Assembly: GCA_021325275.1 (NCBI GenBank)
Contig: JAJPHL010000021.1
Coordinates: 62,001 to 126,000 of the forward strand
Origin: Terriglobia bacterium
Lineage (GTDB): Bacteria; Acidobacteriota; Terriglobia; JAJPHL01
Reading direction: 5' to 3'
DNA length: 64,000 nucleotides
The notes beneath the pieces were generated by a model. That model was given only the letters and a program-made list of their open reading frames with translations. It ran no database searches and was not told the DNA's origin. Positions 23,627-62,318 of the stretch are shown in pieces. The translations under genes were made by a program, and so were the position numbers. Every line of letters begins with the position of its first letter. Positions within the stretch are counted from its first letter, which is position 1.

Positions 23627-25294
23627 CTACTTCATTGCCAATTGCTTCGATCCAGCCGCTGGAGCGGCCAACGTGAGCGTCTCCGCGTTCCAATACACCT
23701 GCGGGCGCAGCACCGACGGTTGGGTGTTGCCCAACGCCGGCGACACTGCGGTCAAGGCGTTCTTGTTCACCAGATACAGGAACGGCACTTGCTCGGAAAC
23801 AATCTCCTGCACGCGATCGAACGCCGCTTTGCGTTTCGCCGGATCGAGTTCGGTGGCTTGCTTCTTCATGAGTTGATCGAGTTCCGCTTCCCACGCCGTC
23901 GCCGGCGTTTTCTGCGCGGGATTCCACTGATGATTCTCACCGCTGCTCATCCACACGTTCATTTGCGCGCTGGGATCGAGGTCCACGTTCACGAGACCGA
24001 GCAGGCACGCTTCGTAGTCGAAACTCTGCGTGATGCGCGTGATGATCGACGGGAAGTCGAGGGTCACGATATTGAGATGCACGCCGATTTGCTTGAGGTC
24101 CTGCTGGATCATCGCCGCCACGCGCTCGCGCGACTGATTGCCGGCGTTCGTGATCACGGAGAACTCCACGACGTGTCCGCTCGCGTCGACGAGATCGGGG
24201 CCCGACTTGTGGAAGCCGTCGAGTTGCAGGCGGCGCAACGCGTCGGCGGGATCATAGGGATGCGCCTTCAAATTCGCGTTGAACCAAAACTTGTTGGCGG
24301 AGGAAAACGGTCCGACGCCGGGGCTCGCGTGGTTCTGATAAACCACGCGCGTCAAATCGTGACGATTGATGGCGCCGGAAATCGCCCGGCGGAAATTCGT
24401 CGAGCGGAACCACGCTTTTTTGTAATCGGGCAGCGGCGACGCCGCCACTTGGTTGAACCACATCTGTTCGCCTTCCAGTGACGGTCCCAAGTCGCGCGCC
24501 GAATTCGACGCGCCACCATTCTGCGCGGCCATTCTCTCGAAGGAATCGGCGTCAAGGTTGTTGATCAAATGCAATTCGCCTTGCGCAAAGCGCAGCATTT
24601 CCAGATCGCGATTCGGGACGATCTCCAGACGGACGGCGTCGAGATACGGTAGTTGTTTTCCCTGCGCGTCATGTTTCCAGTAATGCGAATTGCGATGCAG
24701 CAGGACGTAATTGCCCGCCTTGTACTCGGCGAGCATGAAAGGTCCGAGGCCGGGCGACGCTTCTTTGCCGCTCGCGGAGGCCGAAAGAATCGGCGCTTGA
24801 TCGAAGAGGCGCTCGAGACCCGCCACGGGCGCCGGAAACGCGATGGTCACTTCGTATTTTCCGTTGGCGTGCGCGGTGGTCGGACCACCGTCCACTTGGA
24901 AGGTGTCGGCGATCGGCGAGTGGAGTTTGGGATCCATCATCGACGTGAAGGTGTAGACCACGTCGGCGGAAGTAAACGGCGTGCCATCGGAAAACGTAAC
25001 GCCTTGGCGCAGCGTGAAAGTGATTTTGCGTCCGCCTTCGGTGACTTTCCACGACGTAGCGAGTTCCGGCTGCAATTGTTGCGTCGCGCGATTGATGCGG
25101 ATCAATACGCCGTGCGTCAGATACGAAACGGTCTCGGAAGGTTCGTCGGCCATCAGCAGCGGGTTGAACGTCTTCGGATCGGCGCGCAGGGCGAAGCGCA
25201 ATTCGTTGTTCGACGTTTGAGCGAACGCGTAGCGCGCGGGCAGCGCGACGGCGGCAGCGAGAATCGTTGCGAGCAAAAAGAGTCGGCGGATCAT
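23627..25294 (-). CDS. extracellular solute-binding protein, family 5 (peptide/nickel class)
   Basis: This 555-residue periplasmic receptor has a signal peptide (RRLFLLATILAAAVALPARYAFA). It shows the family-5 layout: NNELRFALRADPKTFNPLLM at the mature start, LATSWKVTEGGRKITFTLRQ and DGTPFTSADVVYTF in the first lobe. Family members deliver di- or oligopeptides, nickel chelates or sugars to the matching permease; the ligand is not evident. The start at 25294 makes an ATGA overlap with the upstream permease stop. The length is standard. Confidence 0.92.
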   Translation of the reverse strand: MIRRLFLLATILAAAVALPARYAFAQTSNNELRFALRADPKTFNPLLMADEPSETVSYLTHGVLIRINRATQQLQPELATSWKVTEGGRKITFTLRQGVTFSDGTPFTSADVVYTFTSMMDPKLHSPIADTFQVDGGPTTAHANGKYEVTIAFPAPVAGLERLFDQAPILSASASGKEASPGLGPFMLAEYKAGNYVLLHRNSHYWKHDAQGKQLPYLDAVRLEIVPNRDLEMLRFAQGELHLINNLDADSFERMAAQNGGASNSARDLGPSLEGEQMWFNQVAASPLPDYKKAWFRSTNFRRAISGAINRHDLTRVVYQNHASPGVGPFSSANKFWFNANLKAHPYDPADALRRLQLDGFHKSGPDLVDASGHVVEFSVITNAGNQSRERVAAMIQQDLKQIGVHLNIVTLDFPSIITRITQSFDYEACLLGLVNVDLDPSAQMNVWMSSGENHQWNPAQKTPATAWEAELDQLMKKQATELDPAKRKAAFDRVQEIVSEQVPFLYLVNKNALTAVSPALGNTQPSVLRPQVYWNAETLTLAAPAAGSKQLAMK

Positions 25295-26118
25295 GAGCAA
25301 ATCTCCTGTTGGGGGAAGGCCAGTTGAAAGGAGCAAATCACCAAAACCAAGAATGCGGCGGGCGCCAGCATCGCCGCCATTTCCATCGGCGCCTGCTGGA
25401 ATAGTGAAGCGTGCAGCGCGGGCAAACTTTCCAGATCACGAAGCAAGCTTCCGAGCGAGGGCAAAGGCTCCGACACGCCGAGTCCCAGTAATCCCAGACT
25501 TGCCTCTGCGAGAACGAACGCCGGAACCGAGACGCAGAACTGCGCCAGCAAAACAGGCGCGACATTCGGTGGGAGTTGACGCGTCAACACGCGCGCGGGT
25601 GAAATGCCGAGGGCCCGCGCTTGCAGCAAAAAATCGGAATCAAGCAGCGCCCGGACTTGCGCGCGGACCACACGCGCGGGCGCGGCCCATCCAAGCGCGC
25701 CGAGCAAAAGAAACGTCAGCGTCACCGAGAGTCGCGGCGCAACGTTCAGCGGCAGCACCGCGCGGACCGCTAGCAGCAAGAACAGCCACGGCAGGGCGAG
25801 CAATAAATCGACGGCGCCCATGATCAGGCGATCCCACACGCCGCCGAGATACGCGGACAAAATCCCGACGATCGCGGCGAGCAACACGGCGAGGGCCGCC
25901 GCCGCGGGCGCGAGAAGAAGCGAAACGCGCGCGCCTTCCAGTAGCCGCGAAAGGCGGTCGCGGCCCAAGTTGTCGGCGCCCAGCGGAAACTGGCTCGACG
26001 GCGAGGCATTCACCGCCTGGCGATACTGATGATCGTAGGCGCGGGGAGCGATCCACGGCGCGAGAATCGCGGCTAAAAACGTAAGCACCAAAATCGCGCG
26101 GGCCATTGTGCGTGTCAT
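25291..26118 (-). CDS. ABC transporter permease, DppC/OppC-like
   Basis: This 275-residue inner-membrane permease of the oligopeptide importer class has a first helix at 8-25, the DppC-type loop FPLGADNLGRDRLSRLLEGA, and about five further helices. The cytoplasmic coupling (EAA-like) loop reads ALGISPARVLTRQLPPNVAP. It overlaps both neighbours by 4 bp: DppB-like at 26115-26118 and the binding protein at 25291-25294. Stoichiometry of one DppB plus one DppC is expected from the family. Confidence 0.9.
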   Translation of the reverse strand: MTRTMARAILVLTFLAAILAPWIAPRAYDHQYRQAVNASPSSQFPLGADNLGRDRLSRLLEGARVSLLLAPAAAALAVLLAAIVGILSAYLGGVWDRLIMGAVDLLLALPWLFLLLAVRAVLPLNVAPRLSVTLTFLLLGALGWAAPARVVRAQVRALLDSDFLLQARALGISPARVLTRQLPPNVAPVLLAQFCVSVPAFVLAEASLGLLGLGVSEPLPSLGSLLRDLESLPALHASLFQQAPMEMAAMLAPAAFLVLVICSFQLAFPQQEICS

Positions 26119-27002
26119 GCGGCACGCTCCGCGCGCTCGAAGAAATCAGGGATGGAATTCGCGGCGATTGTGAACAGCGTCACGATTACGGTCATATCGA
26201 CGAGCAATGGCAGGTCGCGCGCCTGCGCGGCTTGCCACGCCAGCAGACCGAATCCCGGCGATCCGCAGACCACTTCGATCGGAATGAGCGCGCCAAATGC
26301 GAGACTCACCGAGATTCCCGCGAGTGCGGCAATCTCTTCGGCGGCCACCGGCAGCACGTGGTACGCGAGAATGCGCGCGCGGCTCACGCCCTTGGCTTCG
26401 GCAAACAAGACGTGCGGCTGATCGAGAATGCCGCGGGTGAGGGAATCGAGATAGCGGAAGATGCGCGGGAAGATCACTACGGCGACGGCCAATCCCGGCG
26501 GCCAACCGGCCAGCAGGAACAAGAGCGCGATCACCGCCGAGGGCAGCGCGAGTGTCGCGCCGCTCAGCGCGGCGGCGAACGCGTTTAGCGCTTGGCTGCG
26601 CGTAACAGCCATCGCCGCCGCCAGGCCCAAAGCAAAAACCCACGCCAGCGCCAGGCCAATCGCCATCGATCGCGCGGTCACCGGGAGACGCTCGGCGAAC
26701 AATTCCGCGATCGGACGATTGAGGGCGCGCGACTTTCCGAGATCGCCGCCGATCGCCGCACGAAGATTCTGCCAGTAGAGCGCCGCGAAACCTGTTTCGG
26801 TGCGTTCCGCGCGGATCGCGCGAATGCTTTCCGCGCGCATGCGTTGGTCCATTTCGCGTTCGTCGAAACCGTAGCCGGGCGCAAGGCGAATCAGCAGCGC
26901 GCAGAGAAAACCGCCGGCCAGAACGGTTGCCAGCGCCGCGAAAACTCGCCGGAGGATGCGCGGCATTTTCTGAATCGTCGACTTCGTCGCCGTAGGTGTC
27001 AT
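26115..27002 (-). CDS. ABC transporter permease, DppB/OppB-like
   Basis: This 295-residue permease is the partner of the DppC-like subunit. About six helices are seen, and the coupling loop is AKGVSRARILAYHVLPVAAE. The N-terminal periplasmic region is shorter and more divergent than in classical DppB, but ALNRPIAELFAERLPVTARS matches the family. The first Met is at 27002; Met13 (26966) would also fit. It starts 12 nt after the stop of the broken c-di-GMP gene, so the two may share a transcript. The operon order is B, C, binding protein, ATPase. Confidence 0.87.
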   Translation of the reverse strand: MTPTATKSTIQKMPRILRRVFAALATVLAGGFLCALLIRLAPGYGFDEREMDQRMRAESIRAIRAERTETGFAALYWQNLRAAIGGDLGKSRALNRPIAELFAERLPVTARSMAIGLALAWVFALGLAAAMAVTRSQALNAFAAALSGATLALPSAVIALLFLLAGWPPGLAVAVVIFPRIFRYLDSLTRGILDQPHVLFAEAKGVSRARILAYHVLPVAAEEIAALAGISVSLAFGALIPIEVVCGSPGFGLLAWQAAQARDLPLLVDMTVIVTLFTIAANSIPDFFERAERAA

Positions 27003-27014
27003 CGACGCCGCTCG

Positions 27015-28460
27015 TTATTGGATTGTCAGGGAAAGGTGCGCGGCTTCCAGTTTTTCGGGGCGCACACGCAACGCGGCCCTGTGAACTTCCTTGGTCTTGT
27101 ACATCTTGCGATCGGCTTCGCCGAGAAGCTGCTCGGCGTCGAGGCCATCGGTGGGATACGCCGCTTCACCAACGCTGAGCGAAAGGTCCGCGAGCGGGCA
27201 GAGGCGCCGTCCCGTTTCTTCCACTACGGCGACAAAGCGATCGATCTTCGCGCGCAGCGACCCGGAACGTTGCGACGGCAGCACCACGACGAATTCATCG
27301 CCGCCCATACGCGCCACGTAATCATAGGCGCGGCAACTGTCGCGCAATTCCTGCGCCACGGTTTGCAGCACTTGATTGCCGGCTAAGTGACCGTACTTGT
27401 CGTTGACTTGCTTGAAGCCGTCGAGATCGCACACCAAAATCGAGAGCGGCGTTTCTTCGCGCTTGCAGCGGGCGAGTTCGGCATCGAGATGCAGGAAGAG
27501 CGAGCGCGCATTCGGCAATCCCGTGAGACTGTCCGTGGTCGCCGACTTCTCCGCTTGCCGGAATTTCAGCGCGTTTTCCATGGCCATCGCCAGTTTGTGA
27601 CTGATCGCCTGCACCACACGCAACTGATCGCGGGTAAAGCTGTCTTTTTCGCGCGAATAAATCGCCAGCACGCCGACCACACCCTGTGGACTCTCCAGGG
27701 GCACGGCCAAGGCCGAGCGCAGCGTCGAGAACACCGTGGGATCGTTCAAGTATCCCGGCTCCACCGACGGATTGCCGTTGACGATCGACATGTTATTCTG
27801 CGCCACCCATCCGGAAAGCCCTTCGCCCATGGGGATCTCCAGAGCCGAGAGCAGCCGTGCGTTTTCGCCGTTCACGAATTCCGGCAGCAGCTTGCCGTCG
27901 CGGATCGCGTAGATGGCGATGGCGTCGTAGGGAACGATGCGCTTCAAGCGCACGTCGAGGAAGCAGAGCGTTTCATCGAGACGCAGCGAGCTGCCCAGTT
28001 CCTTGGTGAGTTCAAACAGCGTTTGCACTTCCTCGCGGGCCGACGCGATGGTGGTAAGGAACTCGAGACCCGCGGGGCGATGCGGCGGCGCGTCGCTTTC
28101 GAAACCGGCGTCGGGCGCGGCGCCGCGCTCGATCTTCACATTCTTGCTGATCCGGTGGACATCCATGCGCTCGTTGCGCGCCTTTTGCTCGAGTTCCAGA
28201 TAACGGCGCTGCAGCAAGCCCACAACTTTCGGATCAAAGCTCTTGCCGGCATCGAGAACGATCGCTTCCATCGCTTCGTCGAGCGGCAACGCGCGGCGAT
28301 ACTGGCGATCGGACGCCAGCGCATCGAGGCAATCGACCACCGAGAGAATCCGCGCGCCGATGGGAATTTCTTCGCCGCGCAAACCTTGCGGATATCCGCT
28401 GCCATCCCATTTTTCGTGATGGCTCCGCACGATCGGTACCACGGGATACGGAAATTGCAC
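27015..28460 (-). CDS. HD-GYP (C-terminal half), GAF and GGDEF protein: 3' part of a frameshifted gene
   Basis: This 481-codon frame begins in the middle of an HD-GYP domain: HHEKWDGSGYPQGLRGEEIP is the GYP half of the phosphodiesterase motif. A GAF sensor domain follows at about 140-290 and a GGDEF cyclase domain at about 310-470. The GGDEF has an intact MGGDEF active site and an RAYD inhibitory I-site exactly five residues upstream. It should make and break c-di-GMP in response to a GAF ligand. The missing N-terminal half is read in another frame from 29449; one base is absent near 28460-28463. A GTG at 28460 could restart translation, but the domain would be incomplete. Confidence 0.85.
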   Translation of the reverse strand: MQFPYPVVPIVRSHHEKWDGSGYPQGLRGEEIPIGARILSVVDCLDALASDRQYRRALPLDEAMEAIVLDAGKSFDPKVVGLLQRRYLELEQKARNERMDVHRISKNVKIERGAAPDAGFESDAPPHRPAGLEFLTTIASAREEVQTLFELTKELGSSLRLDETLCFLDVRLKRIVPYDAIAIYAIRDGKLLPEFVNGENARLLSALEIPMGEGLSGWVAQNNMSIVNGNPSVEPGYLNDPTVFSTLRSALAVPLESPQGVVGVLAIYSREKDSFTRDQLRVVQAISHKLAMAMENALKFRQAEKSATTDSLTGLPNARSLFLHLDAELARCKREETPLSILVCDLDGFKQVNDKYGHLAGNQVLQTVAQELRDSCRAYDYVARMGGDEFVVVLPSQRSGSLRAKIDRFVAVVEETGRRLCPLADLSLSVGEAAYPTDGLDAEQLLGEADRKMYKTKEVHRAALRVRPEKLEAAHLSLTIQ

Positions 28461-29449
28461 GCGTTCAGAATTTCCGCGCCGACCAGCGGGTGAATCTTCA
28501 TCTTGTCGAACTCTTCCGGCGTCAGGCGACCCGGTTTCGCGATGATGTGCTCGGGAACGGCCAGCTTTCCGATGTCGTGCAACAGCGACGCGGCGCGCAA
28601 GGCTTCCAGTTCGTTCTCGTTCAACCCCATGTCCTTGCCGATTTCCATGGCGTAGACCTGCACGCGGCTCAAGTGCTCCTGCGTGGTGTGATCCTTGGCG
28701 TCGATGGCCAGCGCCAGCGCTTCAATCGTGCGCAAGTGCAGCTTGGACATTTCCTCGGCGTGCGTTTTTTCGCGCTCCAAGCGCTCCAGGTACAACCGAT
28801 AGGAGTGATAAATCCAATAGACCAGCGGCAGGACCAACAGCGTCGACTGCCATCCCCACGCGTGGCTGATGGCGTCAAACAATCCCGAAACGCCCGCGCC
28901 GACCAGGTAACACGGGAACGCCCAGAAATAGCATTCCGACCAAAGCTTGCGCAGCGGCTTGCCTTCGGTAGCGGAAATAATCATTGCCACCGGCAACGTG
29001 TTGGCCACGAACAGCACCGCGGCGGAAAGCGCCAGCGGCAACGGACCGCTGATGTGCAGCGGTACATCGTGGATGAAGTGATACACGCTGAACGACGCTT
29101 GAATCGCCACCGCCATGCTGCCCACATTGAAAACGATTTGTTGGAACGACGGCCGCTTGTTGGCGTTCCAGATGCATTGCAACAATCCCGCGAAGCAACC
29201 GATCGCCAACGTTTCCAGGCGATCCATTTCCAAAACGCCGAGCAGGATGAAAACGAAGTTCACCGACATCGTGCCGGTGACGCCGGGCAGTCGCACTTTC
29301 ATGCGCGACGCCATGCCCGCCAGCGCCAAGTAACAGAAGAAGCGGAACAGGTCGTGCGGTCGATAACTCAGCGCGGCCCAAAGGAATACACCGAGTCCGC
29401 CGATTCCGGCCGTGGTTACAAACGCCCAAATTTTAGCTTTGGCAGTCAT
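28136..29449 (-). CDS. membrane sensor plus HD-GYP (N-terminal half): 5' part of a frameshifted gene
   Basis: The first about 235 residues form a polytopic membrane sensor of seven or eight helices. A short coiled linker (YRLYLERLEREKTHAEEMS) leads into an HD-GYP domain with DAKDHTTQEHLSRVQVYA and the HD pair in ASLLHDIGKLAVP. The frame is authentic to about residue 329 (GAEILNA). Beyond that it reads shifted sequence rich in Arg, Ser and Trp to a stop at 28136. Joined with the frame 27015-28460 the protein would be about 810 residues: membrane sensor, HD-GYP, GAF, GGDEF. Either the gene is inactivated or the assembly lacks a base. Confidence 0.82.
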   Translation of the reverse strand: MTAKAKIWAFVTTAGIGGLGVFLWAALSYRPHDLFRFFCYLALAGMASRMKVRLPGVTGTMSVNFVFILLGVLEMDRLETLAIGCFAGLLQCIWNANKRPSFQQIVFNVGSMAVAIQASFSVYHFIHDVPLHISGPLPLALSAAVLFVANTLPVAMIISATEGKPLRKLWSECYFWAFPCYLVGAGVSGLFDAISHAWGWQSTLLVLPLVYWIYHSYRLYLERLEREKTHAEEMSKLHLRTIEALALAIDAKDHTTQEHLSRVQVYAMEIGKDMGLNENELEALRAASLLHDIGKLAVPEHIIAKPGRLTPEEFDKMKIHPLVGAEILNACNFRIPWYRSCGAITKNGMAADIRKVCAAKKFPSARGFSRWSIASMRWRPIASIAARCRSTKRWKRSFSMPARALIRKLWACCSAVIWNSSKRRATSAWMSTGSARM

Positions 29450-51594: not shown

Positions 51595-53261
51595 GGCGCG
51601 ATGTGGTAGACCACGGTTTGCTGCAAGGCGTGGCCGGTATCGCGCACCACAATCGACATATCGCTCAAGCGCTGCAACGCCCCGCTGAGACTCGTAAGAT
51701 TCTCGGCGAAGAAGAGCGGCTGGCGTGCATCGTTCTCCGCGGTGCGCGCCCATGCCGGTTGCTGATCCATGAGACGCAGCATCTTGATGTATCCGCCGCG
51801 CTCTTGCGCATGCGCGAAACGCGCCGTGTACACGACACCGTCGCCGAGAGCCGCCGCGGCTTGCGCCGTGCCGGCGTCGCCCGCAATCAGAAAGCGTCCG
51901 CGAATTGTCGCCGACGCGCCGAAAATCTCGCGGACAACTGCGGCGTCCCAGGAATCGGCTTCCACAATCACGACGGCGCGTGTGGCGGCGAGAATTCCGC
52001 CGGGAATATCGCGGACCGTCTGAGCTACGAGCATCGCGCGCGGCGTCGATGCGCTGAGGAGTTGGCGCAGGGGCTTGTCGTCGAACGTGGCCGCGCCGGA
52101 AGGCAGCGGCGCTTCGTCGATGCGCGTCTCGAGATCTTCGCTTGGCGCGGCAACTTGTGGCGGATCTTGAGGCGAATCGGAGTCAGCGTCGGCGGCATCG
52201 CTATCGTCGGTGTCGTCGTCGGTCGTGGCCGCGTCGGCGTCGTCATCGTTGCTTTGTGGCGCGACCGCAACAGTGCCCCCCGGCGAGCCCGATGGAAACT
52301 CAGGTCCGGGACGCAACACTTTGTGCCGCAGCGCCGCGACCACTTGGTCGACGCTCGGCGCGGACCACATGCGATACAGTCCCGCGCCCGAAGGAATCAT
52401 GCCGGCGATCGCGGAGTCGAGCGCCGCGGGTGCGGCCGCCGATTCCATGCGCAACATCATGCGCTCTTCGCGAATTTCACTCGGCGTCCGGCGCAGATCG
52501 CAGATGGCCGCGCGATACGCGCGCAGGTCCGGCGTGTTCTGCTGAATCCAGTAACTACGGAACTGCGGTGCGCGCGCCAGTGTTTGAAGATCGAGCGTGA
52601 GCCGCAAATCGCCCGCCGGTCCCGCAGCGGCGACGGCTTGTTGAAACCACGCGTCACTCGTGACGGCGGGAACGCCGGCGGCCTGAGCCGAATTCATGAG
52701 GGCGAGTGCGCGACCCATCAGGTCTTCGCGTGTCGCGAGCACCAGATAATCGCCGCTCGCGGCGAATGCAACTTGGCGGTCGCCTTGCGAACGAACGTAG
52801 TAGGTGACGCCACCAGACTGTCGCGGCTGATAGTCGTTGCGCTTCTGCCAGAGAACGCTCTCGACCGCTTTCGCCGTCGGCAATCGGGTGATGTAGACGA
52901 ATTCGATTTCACGCAGATTGTAGAGCGCCAGAATGCTATGCGTCCCCGCCACCGATTCCACGAGCGACATGTCGGGCGCCAACGCCGCCGCGCCCGCGAA
53001 CTCATCGCGCAGTTGCGAGAGTCGCAGAAGCAGCATGGAGTTGGAAAAAACCTTGTAGTTGTCGCTCGCGAGCCACGCAGATTTTTCTTTTGATCCCTGC
53101 CAATCGCGGAGGAGCGCCGCGAAATCGGAAGCTTCCAACACCAGCGCGGGACCGGCGGGGATGTAGCCGGCCATCGTCTGCGGAGCGGGCGGGGGCGCTT
53201 GCCACACCACGACCGCGCCGGCCGCGGCCATCGCCAGGAGTAACGCGAGCGCGATCTTCAT
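51591..53261 (-). CDS. DUF3352-like exported protein with Asp-rich linker
   Basis: This 556-residue protein is anchored or exported by an N-terminal hydrophobic segment (ALALLLAMAAAGAVVVW). Two similar alpha/beta halves resemble DUF3352: AGYIPAGPALVLEASDFAAL and the RSQGDRQVAFAASGDYLVLA stretch at about 30-330, and RAMLVAQTVRDIPGGILAAT at about 390-556. Between them residues 338-362 form an Asp-rich linker (DDDADAATTDDDTDDSD) that could bind Ca2+ or be simply disordered. Function is unknown. Both ends overlap neighbours by 4 bp, so it is made in step with the giant TPR protein and the transpeptidase. Confidence 0.75.
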   Translation of the reverse strand: MKIALALLLAMAAAGAVVVWQAPPPAPQTMAGYIPAGPALVLEASDFAALLRDWQGSKEKSAWLASDNYKVFSNSMLLLRLSQLRDEFAGAAALAPDMSLVESVAGTHSILALYNLREIEFVYITRLPTAKAVESVLWQKRNDYQPRQSGGVTYYVRSQGDRQVAFAASGDYLVLATREDLMGRALALMNSAQAAGVPAVTSDAWFQQAVAAAGPAGDLRLTLDLQTLARAPQFRSYWIQQNTPDLRAYRAAICDLRRTPSEIREERMMLRMESAAAPAALDSAIAGMIPSGAGLYRMWSAPSVDQVVAALRHKVLRPGPEFPSGSPGGTVAVAPQSNDDDADAATTDDDTDDSDAADADSDSPQDPPQVAAPSEDLETRIDEAPLPSGAATFDDKPLRQLLSASTPRAMLVAQTVRDIPGGILAATRAVVIVEADSWDAAVVREIFGASATIRGRFLIAGDAGTAQAAAALGDGVVYTARFAHAQERGGYIKMLRLMDQQPAWARTAENDARQPLFFAENLTSLSGALQRLSDMSIVVRDTGHALQQTVVYHIAP

Positions 53262-56200
53262 GGCTGCCCTCCTAGGCGCGGACGAACCACGCGGCTCTGC
53301 TCCAATGATACTTTGATCTCCGGTCGCCGCTTGGCGTTCTCGCTGTCGCGCCCGATCTGCGCTTTTACGCGATCTTCTTCGCGCTTCCAAACGCCCGCGG
53401 GATCGTATTGGCTCGCCACGCCAAACAGTCGCTCGGCTTCAACAAGTTCGCCCAAACGTTCGCGCGCGTGTCCGAGGTCGCCGGCTAGGGCGGCGCGTGG
53501 CCCATCGTTCAGCGGCAGTTGCGGAAAGAAAACCATACGCGGGACCACCCGCCGATATTGCTCCTCACTGGGTTCCTCTCCGTCATTGATACTGCGCATC
53601 AAATCGAGCGACTCAAGCGCCGACACCGCGAGCCGATCGCGATGCGCGTCGATCGCGGCGTGGAAAACCGCGACGCGGGTTTCGAGATTACCGGGATCGG
53701 CGGCGATCGCATCGAGCAACGCGCGCAGCTTGGCCGTGGCGTCGCCTGCACGCTGCGCGACGGCCAGGGGATCCGCGCCGGACGCTCGCGCGCGCATGGC
53801 CGCCGGTGCGTGCGGATCACGCGCGATGGCAGCGAGCGCCGCGGTGTCGCGCTGCAAACGCGCTTGCATCGCCCGCGCTTCCAGATCCCACGGCACGGCG
53901 CGTATGCGTGCCGCCAAAAACTCGTTCGCTTCCACCGCGTGCCCGTGACTCTCCAATGCTCGCGCCGAAGGCATCAAGTTTTCAAACGGCGCGCCGGCGA
54001 CCAGGTTCATCCGGCGCAACAACACCAGCGCGGCTGCGACATTGTTTTGCTCAAGCCGCACTTCGGCAAGACCCAGAAAGGCGGCCGGCGCGGGACTGTT
54101 GGCTTCTAGTTGTCGCGTGTATAGGAATTCCAAGACGCGCCCTCGCGCCGCGGCGTTCGTCGAGCGAAGTTGCGCCGCCGCGTCTGCCAGCGTCGCATCC
54201 GAAGCGGCGACGGTTGGATCGCGGCGATAACGTTCGAAGAGCGCATCGAGCTTGGCGCCGCCCGGATCGAGGCCGGCGACTCGAATTTCCAAAACATCGA
54301 TGCTATCGAAGTGCGTTTTGTCGCTGGAGCGCAGCGCCGCCACCAATTCGGCGGCGCGCGCGGGTTGCTTCGAATCGAGAAGGAATTCAGCGTATTGGAT
54401 TCGCCAGTTTCGCAGCAGGCCTTCCGCTTGAAAGCGAGCTTCGCCGAAATTCTCCGCGACGCTGCGCTCGGCTAACGCCACGATTCGCTCGAGAATTGCA
54501 CCGCGATCGCGATCCGCGACCCACGGCGCGTGCACGATGGTTTCGAGCAGCGTCAATTCGTCCGGCGCGGCGCCGGCCAAGTCGAGGGTTTTGGGGAGTC
54601 CGGCAAGTTCCGCGGCCAGTGCAAGCACACGAACATCGAACATCGCCCCGTTCGAGTGAAAAAACACGCGTAGCGATTTCTCCGCGTCCGGCGCGACTTG
54701 CGAATAGGCGCCGGCTTGTTTGAGCGACTCGAGTACGCGGCCGAGTTCCTCGCCGAAGCGCCGCATGTCAACCGTCAGTTTTTCGCAGCCGGCCAACGCG
54801 AGTTTCCAGCGCGCGACCGCCTCATCGCGGCGGCCCTGCTTCCAGAGCGCCGCGGCGGCGCCCGTGTTCGGGGCGATCAGCGTGCGGTCGAGTTCCAGCG
54901 CGCGATCATAATCCGCAAGCGCCGCCGCTAGATTGCCGGTTTCCGCGTAATGGTCCGCGAGGCCGGTGAACGCGCTCGTGGAAGACGGGCGCGCTTCGAG
55001 ACTCGCGGGAAGAAAATCCTCAGCGTTGGCACGCTTCAGGAAATCGAGGTAATCGCCGAAGCGCGCGCCGTAGTAAAACCAGATATCGCCGGCGAGTTGC
55101 TCACGGCGATCGATCGTTTTGCCGAGACGCTGGCCGATTGTTCCGGAATCGAGCGCCGCCGTAAACGCCTGCGCGACTTCCGGCGAGGCGTCGGACCAAT
55201 ACAATCCCGCCAGGCCCGTGTACGCGCGCGACCACACCGGCGAAATGCCCGCACCGCGCGCTTGCATCGCCGCGCGAGCGAGCGCCGCATCGCCCATCGT
55301 GATTGCTTTCGTCGCGGCGGCGTTGCGCAAATCGGTTCCGCTGCCTGTGCGCGCCAACTCGACCAACCGGCGCGGATCGCGCGCGGCTACGAGGGCCAGA
55401 TAGCGATTCATTTCCGGACCCGGCGGCAATCCGCTACGCAAACGCAATTCGAGCAGGCGGAGTTCCTGCGTTTCGTCGCCGCCCTCGCGAAACGCCTGCA
55501 CGGCACGGTCGAGCTCGGCGTTCTTCTCGGGAATTTCCTGGCGCGTGGCGGCGAACGCCTCCAACATTGCGCCAAGTTCCGAGTACTTCATGCGGCGCTT
55601 CTGGATGTCTTCCAGTTGGGAGCGGTCTTGCACTTCGCCTTTGGCGTTCAACCTCTCCACCAGAAGGCGAACGTACAAGTCCGGCGTGGCCGACGCTTCC
55701 GCGAGATAAACCAGTTGACCGCGTTGTTCGGGCGTGAGTTTGTCGACCGCGGCCGCGAACCCGGCCTTCTCTTCGGCCGTGTAATACGTCCCGGCGATTC
55801 CGCCCAGCGTTCTTTGCAGCGCGCCGTTCCGTGCTTCTTCGGGAACGGAAAGCAGTTGCTTAATCGCGTCGTCGTAACGGCGCAGTTGCATCAGCAACTT
55901 TAGGAACGTCCAGTAATCGCCGGGCGATTTCTTGAAGCCCTCTTCGGCAAACGGCAGCGCTTGCTCGGGAAGATTCCATTTTGCCAACTGGTCCGCGACC
56001 TTGTTGTAGTTCTCGCCCTTGTCGGGGCGTCCCTCGATGTAAGCCTTGCGCAGCGCGGCCACGGCATCCTGCGTTTTGCCGAGACGCGCGTCGGCCTCGG
56101 CCGCTTTCGCCATCCATGCAGGATCGTGATAGCTCAAGTCGTACAGCTTTTGATAGTCGGCCAGCGCGTTGGCGAATTGCAGCAGACGTTCGTTGAGTTC

Positions 56201-59200
56201 CGCGCGGGCCTGCAAGAGATCCGGACGATCGGGGCGAATCGCGATGGCCGCTGCATACGCTGAAATCGCCGAGGGAAAATCTTCGAACTGCGTGCGCAAA
56301 CGCGCCAACACCAGCGGCCAACGGAAATCGCGCGGCGACTGCGCGGCCGTCTTCACGTAGTAGTCGAGCAATCGCGGCTTCAGGTTGTTGCGCGCCGCGA
56401 AGTTCGCCGCTTCACTGGTAACCGCGGCGTCTTCCGGATAGCGATTGATCACTTCGATGTATTGATCGACGGCGCCGCTGAAGTCTTTCAGCCGTACGAG
56501 TGCGGGAATCAGGCCACGGCGCATCTGCGACGTCAGCGCGATGCGCTCGTCGCTGGAGAGTTTCGAGTCGCGCAATGCCGTGAGCGTCGTCGTATAGAAC
56601 TCGCGAAGACCCGCATCATCGCCGGCCTGACCGTAGCTATCGGCGATCGCGGCAAGGTATTCGCCGTTGAACGGCGAGTCTTTGGTGAGCTGCGCCAGGA
56701 TCTCGCGGGACCGCGCGTATTGCTTGGCCTCCGTGCATTTCCGCGCGGCTTCCAGCAGGAATGCGCGCTTCTGGGCGGGGTACGACGCATCGCCGGCTTT
56801 CTGCAAGATCGTGATCGCACCATCGGGCGTGTTGTGACGCCAGTTGAAATCGACCGCCGCGCGGACTACGCCGAGGATCGTGGGATGATCGCGGTACAAC
56901 TCAACGATTATCGCGCGCGCCTCGGGAATTTGATTGCGTCCCTCGTGCAATCCGGCGAGTTCCAGACGCAGGCGCATGCCCTCCACGGGATCTTTGTTGA
57001 CGGCAATCTCGCGCTCCACCGCCTTTTGCCGCACGTCGTCCATGCCCTGCTTCACAGCTTCTTGTTCCACACGAGCCAGCATGTCGAACGACGAGGTGTT
57101 CGCGGCGAGCCCGATGAGATACGCCTCGAGATCGGCGCGGCGCGTGGAATCTCGCTCGAGCAACGCCGTGCGCAGTGCAAATTGCGTGGGCGAGATCGCC
57201 GCCGTCGCCGCCGCCGTTTCAATCATTGGTTGAAGGTCGGCGCGGCGAGCGAGCCTTACAAGACGATTGCGCGCTTCCGATTCGGCATCGGAGGCCAGCG
57301 CGCCCTTCATGTACTCGCGCACGGCGGCCGGGTATTCGCGTTTGTTTTCGTAGATCGCGCCGGCTTGATATGCGTACAACGCCGGATCGTGAAGCTTGGT
57401 CCGTCCCGCGGCGATCAAACGCAAGGCGTCGTCGTAGCGGTAATAATCCCAGAAAACTGTCGCCGCTTCGAGATATCCGTCCGCGCGGCCCGGCTCGATG
57501 GCCGCGATGCGATTCCAGTACGGCGCGGCGGCGGCGTATTTCTCGCGATCCGCTTGAATTTCTCCCGCGTGCGTTAGCGGCGCGCGATCGCGAGGGTCGA
57601 GTTTGGCGAGCGATTCTTCCAGCGCCACGGCGCGATCCACGCGCTCGAGTGAACGCTGCAGAGTCGCGTCGCGCGCTACCGCCGCGGCGTCGCCGGGATT
57701 GTCGGCGACAAGTTTGTCGTACGGATCGGCGGCCGCCTCGAAGTGTCCTTGCCAAATTTCCGCTTCCGCGGTGAAAAGCGTGGCGGGTGCATTAAATCCA
57801 CCCGGCGCCGCGGCGAGAGTCTTGGTCGCTTGCAGTTCGCTCTCCAAGCGATTGGTCGCCGAAAGATGCTCCAGCCAGCGCTGACGCAATCCATCGTCGA
57901 GCGGCCAGTATTGGCGCAACAACGCATCGATCCCCGCGGGATTTTGCGTGCCGTTGCGCGTGTAGGCGTCGAGGAGATTGCGGACAAAAATCAAATTCTC
58001 CGGGAAACGATCGTGGGCCGCGAGATTCAATTGGCGATACATCACCGCATCGACCTGAGGACCGGTGACCACGTCACTGAAGTACGACGAGAGATCGCTG
58101 CCGTTGAAAACTCCCGTGACTTCGCGCGTGAGTTTTTCGAAATCGGCGGTGCGCTTCTGACGCAGATACCAGCGCGCCAGCTTGTGGTGCCAGGAACGAT
58201 CCGGGAAATGCGACATCGCCTGGCCATAGACCGTTTCCACTTCGGCGAAGCGGCGATTCTGATCGAGAAATGCGGCGAGGCGCTCGTACAATCCCGGATC
58301 GCTCGGGTTGCGGTCGATTTCGCGGCGATAGAGCGTCGCCGCGTCGGTGACGCGGCGCAGGGAGACGAGACGCGCCACATAGCGATCGAGAATGCGCGCG
58401 TAGTCGGGCGATCGCGCACCGCTGTCAGGAGCGCGTCCGCGATTGACCGGCGGCATTCCCGTAGGAGGCGCCGGATTATCTTGATCCTCGGCTAGCGGCG
58501 CCGGCGCGGCGGCGGCCGTGCCGAGCGGAACATTGCCAGCGCGCGTACCCAAATCCTTGAGGAGCGAATCGTACAACGCAAATTCATCGCGCTCGCGGCG
58601 CGTGCGTGCATACGATTCGGCCATGCGCAGCGCGACGTCCAAGCGCTGCGGCGCGTCACGAAATTCCGCCAGGAATTTCACGCCATCGGCGATCACGCCG
58701 GCGTCCGAGCCGTATGCCGCGTATGCTTCCACCAGCGCGGCGTGCAATTCGGGGCGTCGCGCGTTGCGTGGGAATCGCGTATCGAGTTGCGCGAGCAACT
58801 CGGCGGCTTTCGCTCGATGAAAATAGCTGACGGCGGGTCCGCCTTCCAGGCTCGCGAATTTCGCGCCTGGTTCGGTGGAGTTCAACACCAAGGACAAGAT
58901 GCCGTTCAAAAATCCGGGATACGGATCGATCGTGGCGACGTCGCGAAGAAACGTGAGATCGGAAGAGCCGAACTCGATCGGTTGTTCGGGGGCGTTGAGA
59001 AGGACTCCCACCAAGCCCGCTGTGCCGTCCTCGGCGGCCGCGCCATCGCCGGACGTTTCCGAGAGCTGTTGCCAAGCGCGAGCGGCTTCCACGTAATCGC
59101 GCGAAGCCTCGAACAAGCGCGCCATCGTTCGCAGCTGCGCAGGTGTCCAGTCGGAATGTCGAGCCTCTTTGCGGATGCGATACTCAAGCAGCGCGCGCCG

Positions 59201-60064
59201 CGCCGCGGCTTGATTGCCTTGGCGCGAGTAATAGAAAAAGATGCGAGTGGCCGGCGCGAGGTCGTCGGGTTTCTCGGCTGCATCCGCGCGAGCGCGCGAG
59301 AGAAAGTCGCGCAGCATTCGACGCTCGGAGAGCAACTTGAAGTAGGCGTTTTGCAATTCGTCCGGCCACAGTGGATCGAACGCCTGATCGTACGCCGCCA
59401 CGGCGGTCGCGCCATTCCCGCGCGCTTCGGCGAGCGACGCGCGCGCCGTCACGGGAAACACGTGATCGCCCGGGAAGTCGCGTTGATAGCGCGCGATCAA
59501 CGCGCCGGCCGCCGCGAATTGCTTCTGCTTCACGAGGAAACCGAAGTAGCGCGCCGGAACCGAACTTTCCTTGGGATAGCGCAACATCCACGCTTGATAC
59601 GCGGGACCTTGTTCGGTGGACGGCAGCGCCTGCGCGTCGATCAAGGCGAAGACTCGCTCGAAGGCGCGCCAAGAAGCTTGCTGCGCGGGCGGCGTCAGCT
59701 TTTCGGAGTCGGGTGACGGCTGCCGGCCCGTCGCTAAGAGCGCTTGCACTTCGTCGGCGGCGCGATTGCGGCGATGGTAGAAGTCCGCCAGTTCAATGGG
59801 CGGACGTTGCTTCCAATCCTGTTCGGCGGCGACGTAGTCCATGGCGCGCTCGGCTTCCAGAGCGCGCAGGTCCAGGCGCGCCGCCAGCAGAGGACGCATT
59901 TCACGCGGTGTTCTTCGCGCCGGCACTGGACCGCCCGGCATCGGTGCGGTTTTCCAGAAGACGTCGTGCAGCGGATCCGTTTTGGCGAAGTTGTTGTACC
60001 ACTCGGAGCTTGCGAACATCGCGCAGAAGGACGCGGCGACCAGCCATTTCCTACGGAAGTACAT
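53258..60064 (-). CDS. giant 2268-residue TPR protein
   Basis: An N-terminal hydrophobic segment (KWLVAASFCAMFASS) targets this protein to the membrane or periplasm. Degenerate tetratricopeptide repeats run almost throughout, for example DAATLYRREIDRNPSDPGLY, AVREYMKGALASDAESEARN and LAAALADYDRALELDRTLIA. A Pro/Ala-rich break occurs near residues 510-550. No enzyme or heme motif is seen. The predicted superhelix would be very long and could span the periplasm or coat the envelope. It overlaps the VIT/VWA gene by 14 bp and the DUF3352-like gene by 4 bp. The length is far above ordinary TPR scaffolds and there is no internal stop. Confidence 0.85.
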   Translation of the reverse strand: MYFRRKWLVAASFCAMFASSEWYNNFAKTDPLHDVFWKTAPMPGGPVPARRTPREMRPLLAARLDLRALEAERAMDYVAAEQDWKQRPPIELADFYHRRNRAADEVQALLATGRQPSPDSEKLTPPAQQASWRAFERVFALIDAQALPSTEQGPAYQAWMLRYPKESSVPARYFGFLVKQKQFAAAGALIARYQRDFPGDHVFPVTARASLAEARGNGATAVAAYDQAFDPLWPDELQNAYFKLLSERRMLRDFLSRARADAAEKPDDLAPATRIFFYYSRQGNQAAARRALLEYRIRKEARHSDWTPAQLRTMARLFEASRDYVEAARAWQQLSETSGDGAAAEDGTAGLVGVLLNAPEQPIEFGSSDLTFLRDVATIDPYPGFLNGILSLVLNSTEPGAKFASLEGGPAVSYFHRAKAAELLAQLDTRFPRNARRPELHAALVEAYAAYGSDAGVIADGVKFLAEFRDAPQRLDVALRMAESYARTRRERDEFALYDSLLKDLGTRAGNVPLGTAAAAPAPLAEDQDNPAPPTGMPPVNRGRAPDSGARSPDYARILDRYVARLVSLRRVTDAATLYRREIDRNPSDPGLYERLAAFLDQNRRFAEVETVYGQAMSHFPDRSWHHKLARWYLRQKRTADFEKLTREVTGVFNGSDLSSYFSDVVTGPQVDAVMYRQLNLAAHDRFPENLIFVRNLLDAYTRNGTQNPAGIDALLRQYWPLDDGLRQRWLEHLSATNRLESELQATKTLAAAPGGFNAPATLFTAEAEIWQGHFEAAADPYDKLVADNPGDAAAVARDATLQRSLERVDRAVALEESLAKLDPRDRAPLTHAGEIQADREKYAAAAPYWNRIAAIEPGRADGYLEAATVFWDYYRYDDALRLIAAGRTKLHDPALYAYQAGAIYENKREYPAAVREYMKGALASDAESEARNRLVRLARRADLQPMIETAAATAAISPTQFALRTALLERDSTRRADLEAYLIGLAANTSSFDMLARVEQEAVKQGMDDVRQKAVEREIAVNKDPVEGMRLRLELAGLHEGRNQIPEARAIIVELYRDHPTILGVVRAAVDFNWRHNTPDGAITILQKAGDASYPAQKRAFLLEAARKCTEAKQYARSREILAQLTKDSPFNGEYLAAIADSYGQAGDDAGLREFYTTTLTALRDSKLSSDERIALTSQMRRGLIPALVRLKDFSGAVDQYIEVINRYPEDAAVTSEAANFAARNNLKPRLLDYYVKTAAQSPRDFRWPLVLARLRTQFEDFPSAISAYAAAIAIRPDRPDLLQARAELNERLLQFANALADYQKLYDLSYHDPAWMAKAAEADARLGKTQDAVAALRKAYIEGRPDKGENYNKVADQLAKWNLPEQALPFAEEGFKKSPGDYWTFLKLLMQLRRYDDAIKQLLSVPEEARNGALQRTLGGIAGTYYTAEEKAGFAAAVDKLTPEQRGQLVYLAEASATPDLYVRLLVERLNAKGEVQDRSQLEDIQKRRMKYSELGAMLEAFAATRQEIPEKNAELDRAVQAFREGGDETQELRLLELRLRSGLPPGPEMNRYLALVAARDPRRLVELARTGSGTDLRNAAATKAITMGDAALARAAMQARGAGISPVWSRAYTGLAGLYWSDASPEVAQAFTAALDSGTIGQRLGKTIDRREQLAGDIWFYYGARFGDYLDFLKRANAEDFLPASLEARPSSTSAFTGLADHYAETGNLAAALADYDRALELDRTLIAPNTGAAAALWKQGRRDEAVARWKLALAGCEKLTVDMRRFGEELGRVLESLKQAGAYSQVAPDAEKSLRVFFHSNGAMFDVRVLALAAELAGLPKTLDLAGAAPDELTLLETIVHAPWVADRDRGAILERIVALAERSVAENFGEARFQAEGLLRNWRIQYAEFLLDSKQPARAAELVAALRSSDKTHFDSIDVLEIRVAGLDPGGAKLDALFERYRRDPTVAASDATLADAAAQLRSTNAAARGRVLEFLYTRQLEANSPAPAAFLGLAEVRLEQNNVAAALVLLRRMNLVAGAPFENLMPSARALESHGHAVEANEFLAARIRAVPWDLEARAMQARLQRDTAALAAIARDPHAPAAMRARASGADPLAVAQRAGDATAKLRALLDAIAADPGNLETRVAVFHAAIDAHRDRLAVSALESLDLMRSINDGEEPSEEQYRRVVPRMVFFPQLPLNDGPRAALAGDLGHARERLGELVEAERLFGVASQYDPAGVWKREEDRVKAQIGRDSENAKRRPEIKVSLEQSRVVRPRLGGQP

Positions 60065-62318
60065 CGATGCGTACCTCCTGACTCCCGATGTTGTGCGCGA
60101 TATCCTCGGCGGTAACCGTCAACACGTAGCTTCCCGGCGCGAGTCCCGCAGGTATCGCGAGATCGCCGGTGTTAGCGGCCGAACGCGAATCCCAATGCAG
60201 TTCGACGGCCGCCGTTCCGTACATGCGCGCGAGCACGGTGCGCGTGTGTTGCGACGCGCTGGCACGCAGGTGCACCACGTCGCCGGCGCGATAGCGCGAT
60301 TTGTCGAGCTTCACGCGCACCACCGGCGGTTTGCTGGCGATCACAAAGCTTTTCCGTTCGCGATAAACGCGGCCTTGGCGGTCGCGCAGAATGAGGCGCA
60401 CCCAGTACGTGCCGTCCGACATTTCCTTTGGCGCGAGAAAACGCGTTTGCCAGACATCCTCGCCCGCCAAATAGCGGAGTGATTGCACCAGTCCAAAGGG
60501 AAACAGCGCTGTGACCGAGGCGACGGCGGCGTCGGTGTGCACGCGCAGGACGGGATCGCCGGGACGAATCAAGCGCGGACGCAACAAGGCGCGCGGCGCG
60601 GCCAGGAATGAGGTGTACGGTGTGACGAATTTGTATTTGCGCGAGAGGCGAATGATTTCGTCGATCGATTCGCGATCTTCGCCGTCGCGTTCGATCTTTT
60701 CAAGCAGCGCCTTCACGCGCGCCGCCGCCCAGGTGCGCGGAAGTTCGGGATGTTCCCGGGCGACCGCGGGCAAATCCGCCGTGGCTTGCATCGCGCCGGC
60801 CGAAAAGGTCGCCGCCCCGGGCTGCTGGTATTGCCCGATCCAAGACGCCATCGATCCGGGGAAACGCGTTTCTTCCAGTGGATAAACCAAGCGTAAATTC
60901 GACGCCGGCGCGGCCGTGAAGTTCAAACCATCCACCGGCTTTCGCGTGACCTTCGACAAAAAGAGCCGCAGCGGGAATTCGGCCGGCTCGGTGGAGCGAA
61001 TGGCTTCCACGAATCCCGGGTTATTCGCGGGATTGCGCGCCAGCATCGTCAGCAGCGGAATGTTGGCGTCGTCGCCGACGGCCCACACGCACGTGCGCGG
61101 CGGGTTTTGCTTGGCGTACCAGTCGGCGAGCTTTCCGGTGGCGATGACGCCGCGCGTCGCGCCGCCGTCGGACAGCAAAACCAATTCCGTTTCATCCGCT
61201 CCGCGGCGTCCTTGCGCCACTCCCGCGGTGAGCGCCGCTTCGAGATTTGTTCCGCCTCGCAACCTCCGTTGGCGAACCCAGTTGAGCGCCTGCTCCACGC
61301 TTTGCGGCGACACCGCCGTTGGATCGGGCTGGAACGTTTCGATTTCGGTGTTGAACATCAGAACGTTGAAGCGATCGCGCGGCGTGAGCGCGTGCAACAA
61401 TCCGTCGAGCGCCGCAAAACTGCGCTCCAACTTTTCCCACTGCATGGAGAGCGAATTGTCGAAGAGCACGACCACCGTGCGGGCGGCGCTCGCCGCGGCC
61501 GGCGCGGGAGCGAGGAGCGCCGAGGCCTGAAAGAATCCCGGCTCGCCGGCCGAGTCGCGATGCGCGATCACACCGAGTTTCGCGGTGGCAGATGGTTCGT
61601 AGCCGTAGCGAACGGAAAAATCTTCAGTGAGATTGACGTTGCGCGCTTCAAACGTGGCGCGCACCAGGTGCGGATTCTGCTCGCGCACCTGGACGGCGTA
61701 GGCCTTCGAGACAATCTGAAAATCCTTCAGCGCTTGCGAGGAACGCAGTTCGAGCGTGATCCACATATGTCCGACGGCCTGCTGCTGATACGCGCCGGGC
61801 TTCAGCGGAATGGCCAGCAGCGACGCCAGGTCGTCCACGGGAATGGTTTGGTGATACTCGAGCTCGATGCGCTTCGATCCGAACATGGGGATCGGCACGA
61901 TTTGCGCGCTGAATACGGCGCTGCGGCGGCCCTCGGCCGCGTCTTCGCCGCCTTCGAGCAATCCCGGATCGATGGATTGCAGCTTGATGTCCTTGTAAAG
62001 CTCTTCGGCGCGTTTGCGTTCCAGGATCACGCCGGGGATTCGCGTGGTGTCGTCCCAAACGGCGAAGTCGGAGATCATGGCGCGGCCCGGCAGCGCGAAG
62101 GAATATTTTCCCTCGAGGATTTGGCCGACGTGGCTCGCGTAGACCTGGCGCACCAGCACGCGCGCGTCGCCGTCGTCGATGGTGATATCGATGGCCATCT
62201 CCGCCATGGTCAGGGCGTTCGGATTCGGCTGCGCCAAATTGGTGGGCACAAGGATTCCGCCGTCGCCGCGCGCGAACGCGGCGGCCAACAGCAACGAGAA
62301 CGCCAGGCGCCGCCTCAT
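60051..62318 (-). CDS. VIT and von Willebrand factor A domain protein
   Basis: This 755-residue exported protein has a signal peptide (RRLAFSLLLAAAFARG). A VIT (inter-alpha-trypsin inhibitor) domain spans about 30-240 (VYASHVGQILEGKYSFALPG, ERKRAEELYKDI). A VWA domain follows at about 280-470 with an intact MIDAS: D287-x-S289-x-S291 (FDNSLS), Thr in RGGTNLEAAL and Asp in LLSDGGATRG. The region at about 540-620 (SIDEIIRLSRKYKFVTPYTS) is the usual tail of VIT-VWA proteins, and a C-terminal beta-sandwich follows. The MIDAS suggests metal-dependent protein-protein contacts. It is coupled to the propeller gene by an ATGA overlap. Confidence 0.88.
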   Translation of the reverse strand: MRRRLAFSLLLAAAFARGDGGILVPTNLAQPNPNALTMAEMAIDITIDDGDARVLVRQVYASHVGQILEGKYSFALPGRAMISDFAVWDDTTRIPGVILERKRAEELYKDIKLQSIDPGLLEGGEDAAEGRRSAVFSAQIVPIPMFGSKRIELEYHQTIPVDDLASLLAIPLKPGAYQQQAVGHMWITLELRSSQALKDFQIVSKAYAVQVREQNPHLVRATFEARNVNLTEDFSVRYGYEPSATAKLGVIAHRDSAGEPGFFQASALLAPAPAAASAARTVVVLFDNSLSMQWEKLERSFAALDGLLHALTPRDRFNVLMFNTEIETFQPDPTAVSPQSVEQALNWVRQRRLRGGTNLEAALTAGVAQGRRGADETELVLLSDGGATRGVIATGKLADWYAKQNPPRTCVWAVGDDANIPLLTMLARNPANNPGFVEAIRSTEPAEFPLRLFLSKVTRKPVDGLNFTAAPASNLRLVYPLEETRFPGSMASWIGQYQQPGAATFSAGAMQATADLPAVAREHPELPRTWAAARVKALLEKIERDGEDRESIDEIIRLSRKYKFVTPYTSFLAAPRALLRPRLIRPGDPVLRVHTDAAVASVTALFPFGLVQSLRYLAGEDVWQTRFLAPKEMSDGTYWVRLILRDRQGRVYRERKSFVIASKPPVVRVKLDKSRYRAGDVVHLRASASQHTRTVLARMYGTAAVELHWDSRSAANTGDLAIPAGLAPGSYVLTVTAEDIAHNIGSQEVRIDVLP

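Follow-up and report, generated by a model that had tools for sequence, protein, structure and literature searches.

Gene organization at the split locus

On the minus strand of the window (the whole 64,000-nucleotide stretch that was analysed), a gene running from 29449 to 27015 is divided by a single frame change within its HD-GYP domain (Table 1). It appears as two ORFs, one from 29449 to 28136 and the other, in the -1 frame, from a GTG at 28460 to 27015, the second being open for 481 codons and carrying intact GAF and GGDEF domains. The 170 positions of the HD_5 profile are shared out between them, 6-87 falling in the first ORF and 93-170 in the second (Pfam), while the second part matches GGDEF with an E-value of 4.3e-41 and GAF_3 with one of 2.5e-12. 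A single continuous reading frame is lacking in the window copy, whether judged from the ORFs, from the frame model or from a reading of the junction. The two ORFs are thus one gene split by one frame change, and the first-pass annotation, which had described a one-base frameshift splitting a membrane HD-GYP/GAF/GGDEF gene, is confirmed in this respect by the two ORFs and the divided HD_5 profile.

Table 1. Features of the split gene, of the genes downstream of it, and of two further split genes in the same genome.
Feature	Position	Strand	Content and basis
First part of gene	28466..29449	-	Membrane region of about six hydrophobic stretches, MASE9-like (hydropathy); N-terminal HD-GYP half with HDIGK (ORF; HD_5 and HD in Pfam)
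Frame-change site	28464..28468	-	L codon of the first frame and E codon of the second overlap at base 28466 (consensus comparison; frame model)
Out-of-frame tail of first ORF	28136..28465	-	Terminated by a stop (ORF list)
Second part of gene	27015..28466	-	Open from frame change to stop; C-terminal HD-GYP half (HHEKWDGSGYP), GAF, GGDEF with RxxD; HD_5, GAF_3, GGDEF (Pfam)
ABC transporter permease	26115..27002	-	BPD_transp_1 (Pfam); start 12 bases past the stop of the broken gene
Second ABC transporter permease	25291..26118	-	BPD_transp_1 (Pfam)
Solute-binding protein, peptide transporter type	23627..25336	-	SBP_bac_5 (Pfam)
Amine oxidase-like gene, two frames	L080:11565-13071 (G000 contig C31)		Profile 1-256 in one frame, 273-443 in the other (Pfam)
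hsdM-like gene	L093:2701-3668 (G000 contig C32)		Change of frame after HsdM_N and before N6_Mtase begins, early end (Pfam)

Active-site motifs were said to be kept in both parts, and all of them can indeed be read in the translations: HD, HHEKWDGSGYP (HHExxDGxGYP) and GGDEF, together with an RxxD five residues before the last (RAYD-YVARM-GGDEF). From these domains and motifs, the gene is predicted to encode a known kind of membrane-bound c-di-GMP enzyme that combines an HD-GYP phosphodiesterase with a GAF-GGDEF cyclase. The portion of the literature consulted describes HD-GYP enzymes whose structure has been solved (PMC4159591) and holds nothing related on MASE9. The MASE9 domain (PF20972) scores 21.5 bits in the window copy against a Pfam cut-off of 24.3, and is matched at an E-value of 0.001 or better by nine of the 13 aligned family members.

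Position of the frame change

A three-periodic coding model, trained on long ORFs of the same genome and blind to the finding, independently places the frame jump at 28461/28462, with the old frame overrunning by 323 bases. Read upstream of the GTG at 28460, the second frame gives S-E-R-V-Q-F-P-Y-P-V-V-P-I, and the family consensus across the junction is E-I-L-E-R-V-x-F-P-Y-P-V-V-P-I. Because the second frame already fits this consensus at E-R-V-Q, the change is placed at about 28466, where the L codon (28468-28466) gives way to the E codon (28466-28464). It had previously been put between 28460 and 28463; a frame change does occur roughly there, but its true site is two codons upstream of AACGCGTGCAA. 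The frame had also been described as conserved up to GAEILNA. This extends the conservation too far: among 53 relatives, E-I is followed by L in 51, then by E in 40 and by R in 29, whereas N takes the place of the E in only one and A that of the R in only three, so the final 'NA' consists of out-of-frame residues.

Comparison with relatives

Relatives were drawn from three sources: 41 genomes including the window's own, with a match in 35; 399 genomes of the class, 119 of which (again counting the window's own) have a match at an E-value of 1e-60 or better; and 40 loci from genome_contigs, comprising 36 named as Acidobacteriota and four HD-only matches from other bacteria. The 53 loci compared are those comparable over both parts of the gene, and the same genome may occur in two collections; loci with the HD part alone were left out, as were L057, L069 and L096. 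In all 53, both halves lie in a single frame. These three read through the junction as well: L057 ends just past it, L069 starts 40 residues before it, and L096 is broken elsewhere. The matches listed from the 399-genome search include five with open frames shorter than 600 residues (G000, G159, G182, G145:C214 and G144), of which G145:C214 and G182 proved unbroken at the junction on reading. Two separate genes split at this point occur in no relative examined, and gene fission, which the first-pass annotation had offered as an alternative, is rejected.

Two of these loci show damage of other kinds. L096:3687-4259, in genome G145, is 70% identical over residues 137-327, and its homology is lost on the upstream side and again a short way past the GYP motif. 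L048:34-981, which comes from a Sulfotelmatobacter metagenome bin and is one of the 53, has a stop codon within the membrane region; therefore, broken copies of the membrane HD-GYP/GAF/GGDEF family exist elsewhere too.

Thirty-four relatives have at least 500 bases of DNA downstream of the gene, and nine of them carry there, on the same strand, an ABC permease similar to the window's next genes, counted at any distance from the gene. All nine are intact at the junction, and they include the four relatives closest by first-part identity (L098, L097, L034 and L100); they are likely to be true counterparts of the window gene. The order of c-di-GMP enzyme, two ABC permeases and solute-binding protein (window:23627-29449), in which these nine agree with the window up to at least one permease, is a hint that enzyme and transporter are functionally linked. 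The downstream permease of one relative, at L099:4648-5383, is matched partly in one frame and partly in another and may carry a separate frameshift. Elsewhere in the window, at 53261-60118, an ORF of about 2286 residues carries TPR repeats and has no other Pfam match at an E-value of 1e-8 or better.

Recoding and restart at the junction

Two ways had been suggested in which the broken gene might still be expressed. One is programmed -1 frameshifting, by ribosomal or transcriptional slippage, which would yield one full protein. A -1 step at 28466 would restore the family sequence L-E-R-V-Q exactly, and both halves are conserved. However, the slippery sequence that was to be looked for is absent: the stretch 28489-28431 contains no X XXY YYZ heptamer, and within 30 bases of the site there is no single-base run longer than three and no long run of A or T. 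The RNA fold of 90 bases at the site is unremarkable (z = -0.81; of 200 shuffled sequences, 37 fold equally well), and a -1 frameshift is shown or needed by none of the 53 relatives. On site, fold and conservation, we reject programmed frameshifting, which is highly improbable.

The other is a functional restart at GTG 28460, taken here to include later starts as well, by which a soluble GAF-GGDEF cyclase would be freed from the membrane part. The long second ORF with both of its domains intact would allow this, but the product would start midway through the HD-GYP domain, the arrangement is seen in no relative examined, and a Shine-Dalgarno match of only three bases precedes 28460, compared with four before 29449. 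Matches of four or more precede 35% of 283 modelled starts versus 19% of random sites; such matches are a weak signal here in any case, and a weak restart is compatible with them. We consider a functional restart very unlikely, though a shade less so than frameshifting, and even taken together, recoding and useful restart are improbable.

Condition of the window copy

Apart from the single frame change, no decay was found in the window copy in the form of stop codons, of which neither part contains a further one, or of lost conserved residues. None of the 81 columns conserved in 95% of the family is altered (33 in the first part and 48 in the second), nor is any of the 138 conserved in 90% (56 and 82); at the 80% level, three of 87 are altered in the first part and three of 144 in the second, fewer than in the median relative. 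As a rough bound that gives the order of magnitude, drawn from the 138 columns with every change assumed visible, neutral change since the break would be below about 1% per site. The closest relatives among the matches listed are about 60% identical in protein, and the break thus cannot be dated from synonymous and non-synonymous changes. The two possibilities raised by the first-pass annotation, recent decay or a wrong assembly, are both supported by the intact relatives and the undamaged halves.

In a search of the window's own genome, no other match covered the membrane part, the remaining matches being largely limited to the HD half or to the GAF/GGDEF half. A nearby duplicate that would make this copy redundant was thus not found. 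Among plasmid records, close DNA was confined to short matches, about 150 bases long, in the best five of 13 records, and none of the 13 covers 80% of the query.

Other frame breaks in the same genome

The frame model was run over 452,586 bases, consisting of the window and 20 stretches of the same genome, and reported 32 frame jumps, mostly ordinary short gene overlaps. In seven of them, that of the window gene included, the old frame overruns by more than 60 bases. Of the other six, L080, L083, L093 and L094 were run against Pfam, together with L082 (an overrun of 55 bases); L087 and L088, in which the new frame spans just a few codons, were outside this check. A domain set split over two frames was found in L080 and L093 (Table 1), and no split domain in L082, L083 or L094. 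Counting the window gene, there are thus three confirmed split genes in 0.45 Mb, about one event per 150 kb. When single bases were deleted at random sites in long genes as a control, the model recovered 147 of 200 such deletions. A few per cent of pseudogenes is common in bacterial genomes, and the load of split genes is therefore unremarkable. Since two further genes are split, such breaks form a background in this genome, and because the hsdM-like gene, which looks like a decayed restriction-modification remnant, is also truncated, true decay occurs here.

Real inactivation or a consensus error

The explanation that we favour, at little better than even confidence, is a single, very recent loss of one base, specific to this organism, that inactivated an ordinary gene for a membrane c-di-GMP enzyme. 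The base would then be truly missing from the organism and the function lost: translation would yield the membrane part with one half of the HD-GYP domain, followed by some 109 wrong residues up to the stop at 28136, and the second half of the protein would be produced little or not at all. This real inactivation is favoured because all 53 relatives have both halves in one frame, because the two other genes split in Pfam show decay in this genome, and because the site lacks a long single-base run.

Its close rival is a consensus or assembly error, in which the organism has a whole gene and one base is missing from the record; we regard this as a serious possibility of somewhat less than even probability. 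Both halves look fully constrained, with no change in 138 conserved columns, and such near-zero change is equally compatible with an assembly error; moreover, the assembly is a draft in 75 contigs, and the two other split genes in the 452,586 bases could themselves include errors. Against this, the break lies outside any long homopolymer, and at least one other broken gene is also truncated, a sign that true decay exists in the genome. In the parts of the literature consulted, errors of long-read assemblies are mostly placed in homopolymer runs (PMC8812927, PMC9262707), and those parts hold nothing bacterial on indel errors and pseudogenes in metagenome-assembled genomes.

That the loss is both real and useful, either through a freed, restart-translated GAF-GGDEF cyclase or through a phase-variable on/off state, raising c-di-GMP in the lineage, seems to us extremely doubtful. 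Should the break be real, the only copy of the membrane enzyme in the assembly of this organism has been lost, and polarity might lower the expression of the downstream transporter genes. For annotation, the pair of ORFs should be treated as one broken gene, as domain counting would wrongly list an HD-GYP protein and a cyclase as two separate proteins.

Comparison with known systems

In -1 programmed ribosomal frameshifting of the dnaX type, a slippery heptamer is accompanied by a downstream structure. The shift needed by the window gene would likewise be -1; however, its site is without a slippery heptamer, unusual structure or conservation. With the membrane HD-GYP/GAF/GGDEF enzymes of Acidobacteriota (HD_5 PF13487, GAF PF13185/PF13492, GGDEF PF00990), the window gene shares the domain order and motifs, as well as the downstream transporter permease found in nine relatives, but its HD-GYP domain lies in two frames, whereas the 53 relatives are unbroken at this point. 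Ordinary recent frameshift pseudogenes resemble it in the single small indel, the intact relatives and the want of a conserved recoding signal, and differ in that the window copy shows no further decay and is fitted equally well by an assembly error. In short, this looks like an ordinary one-base break in a known kind of gene, a fresh mutation or an assembly slip, and calls for no new mechanism.
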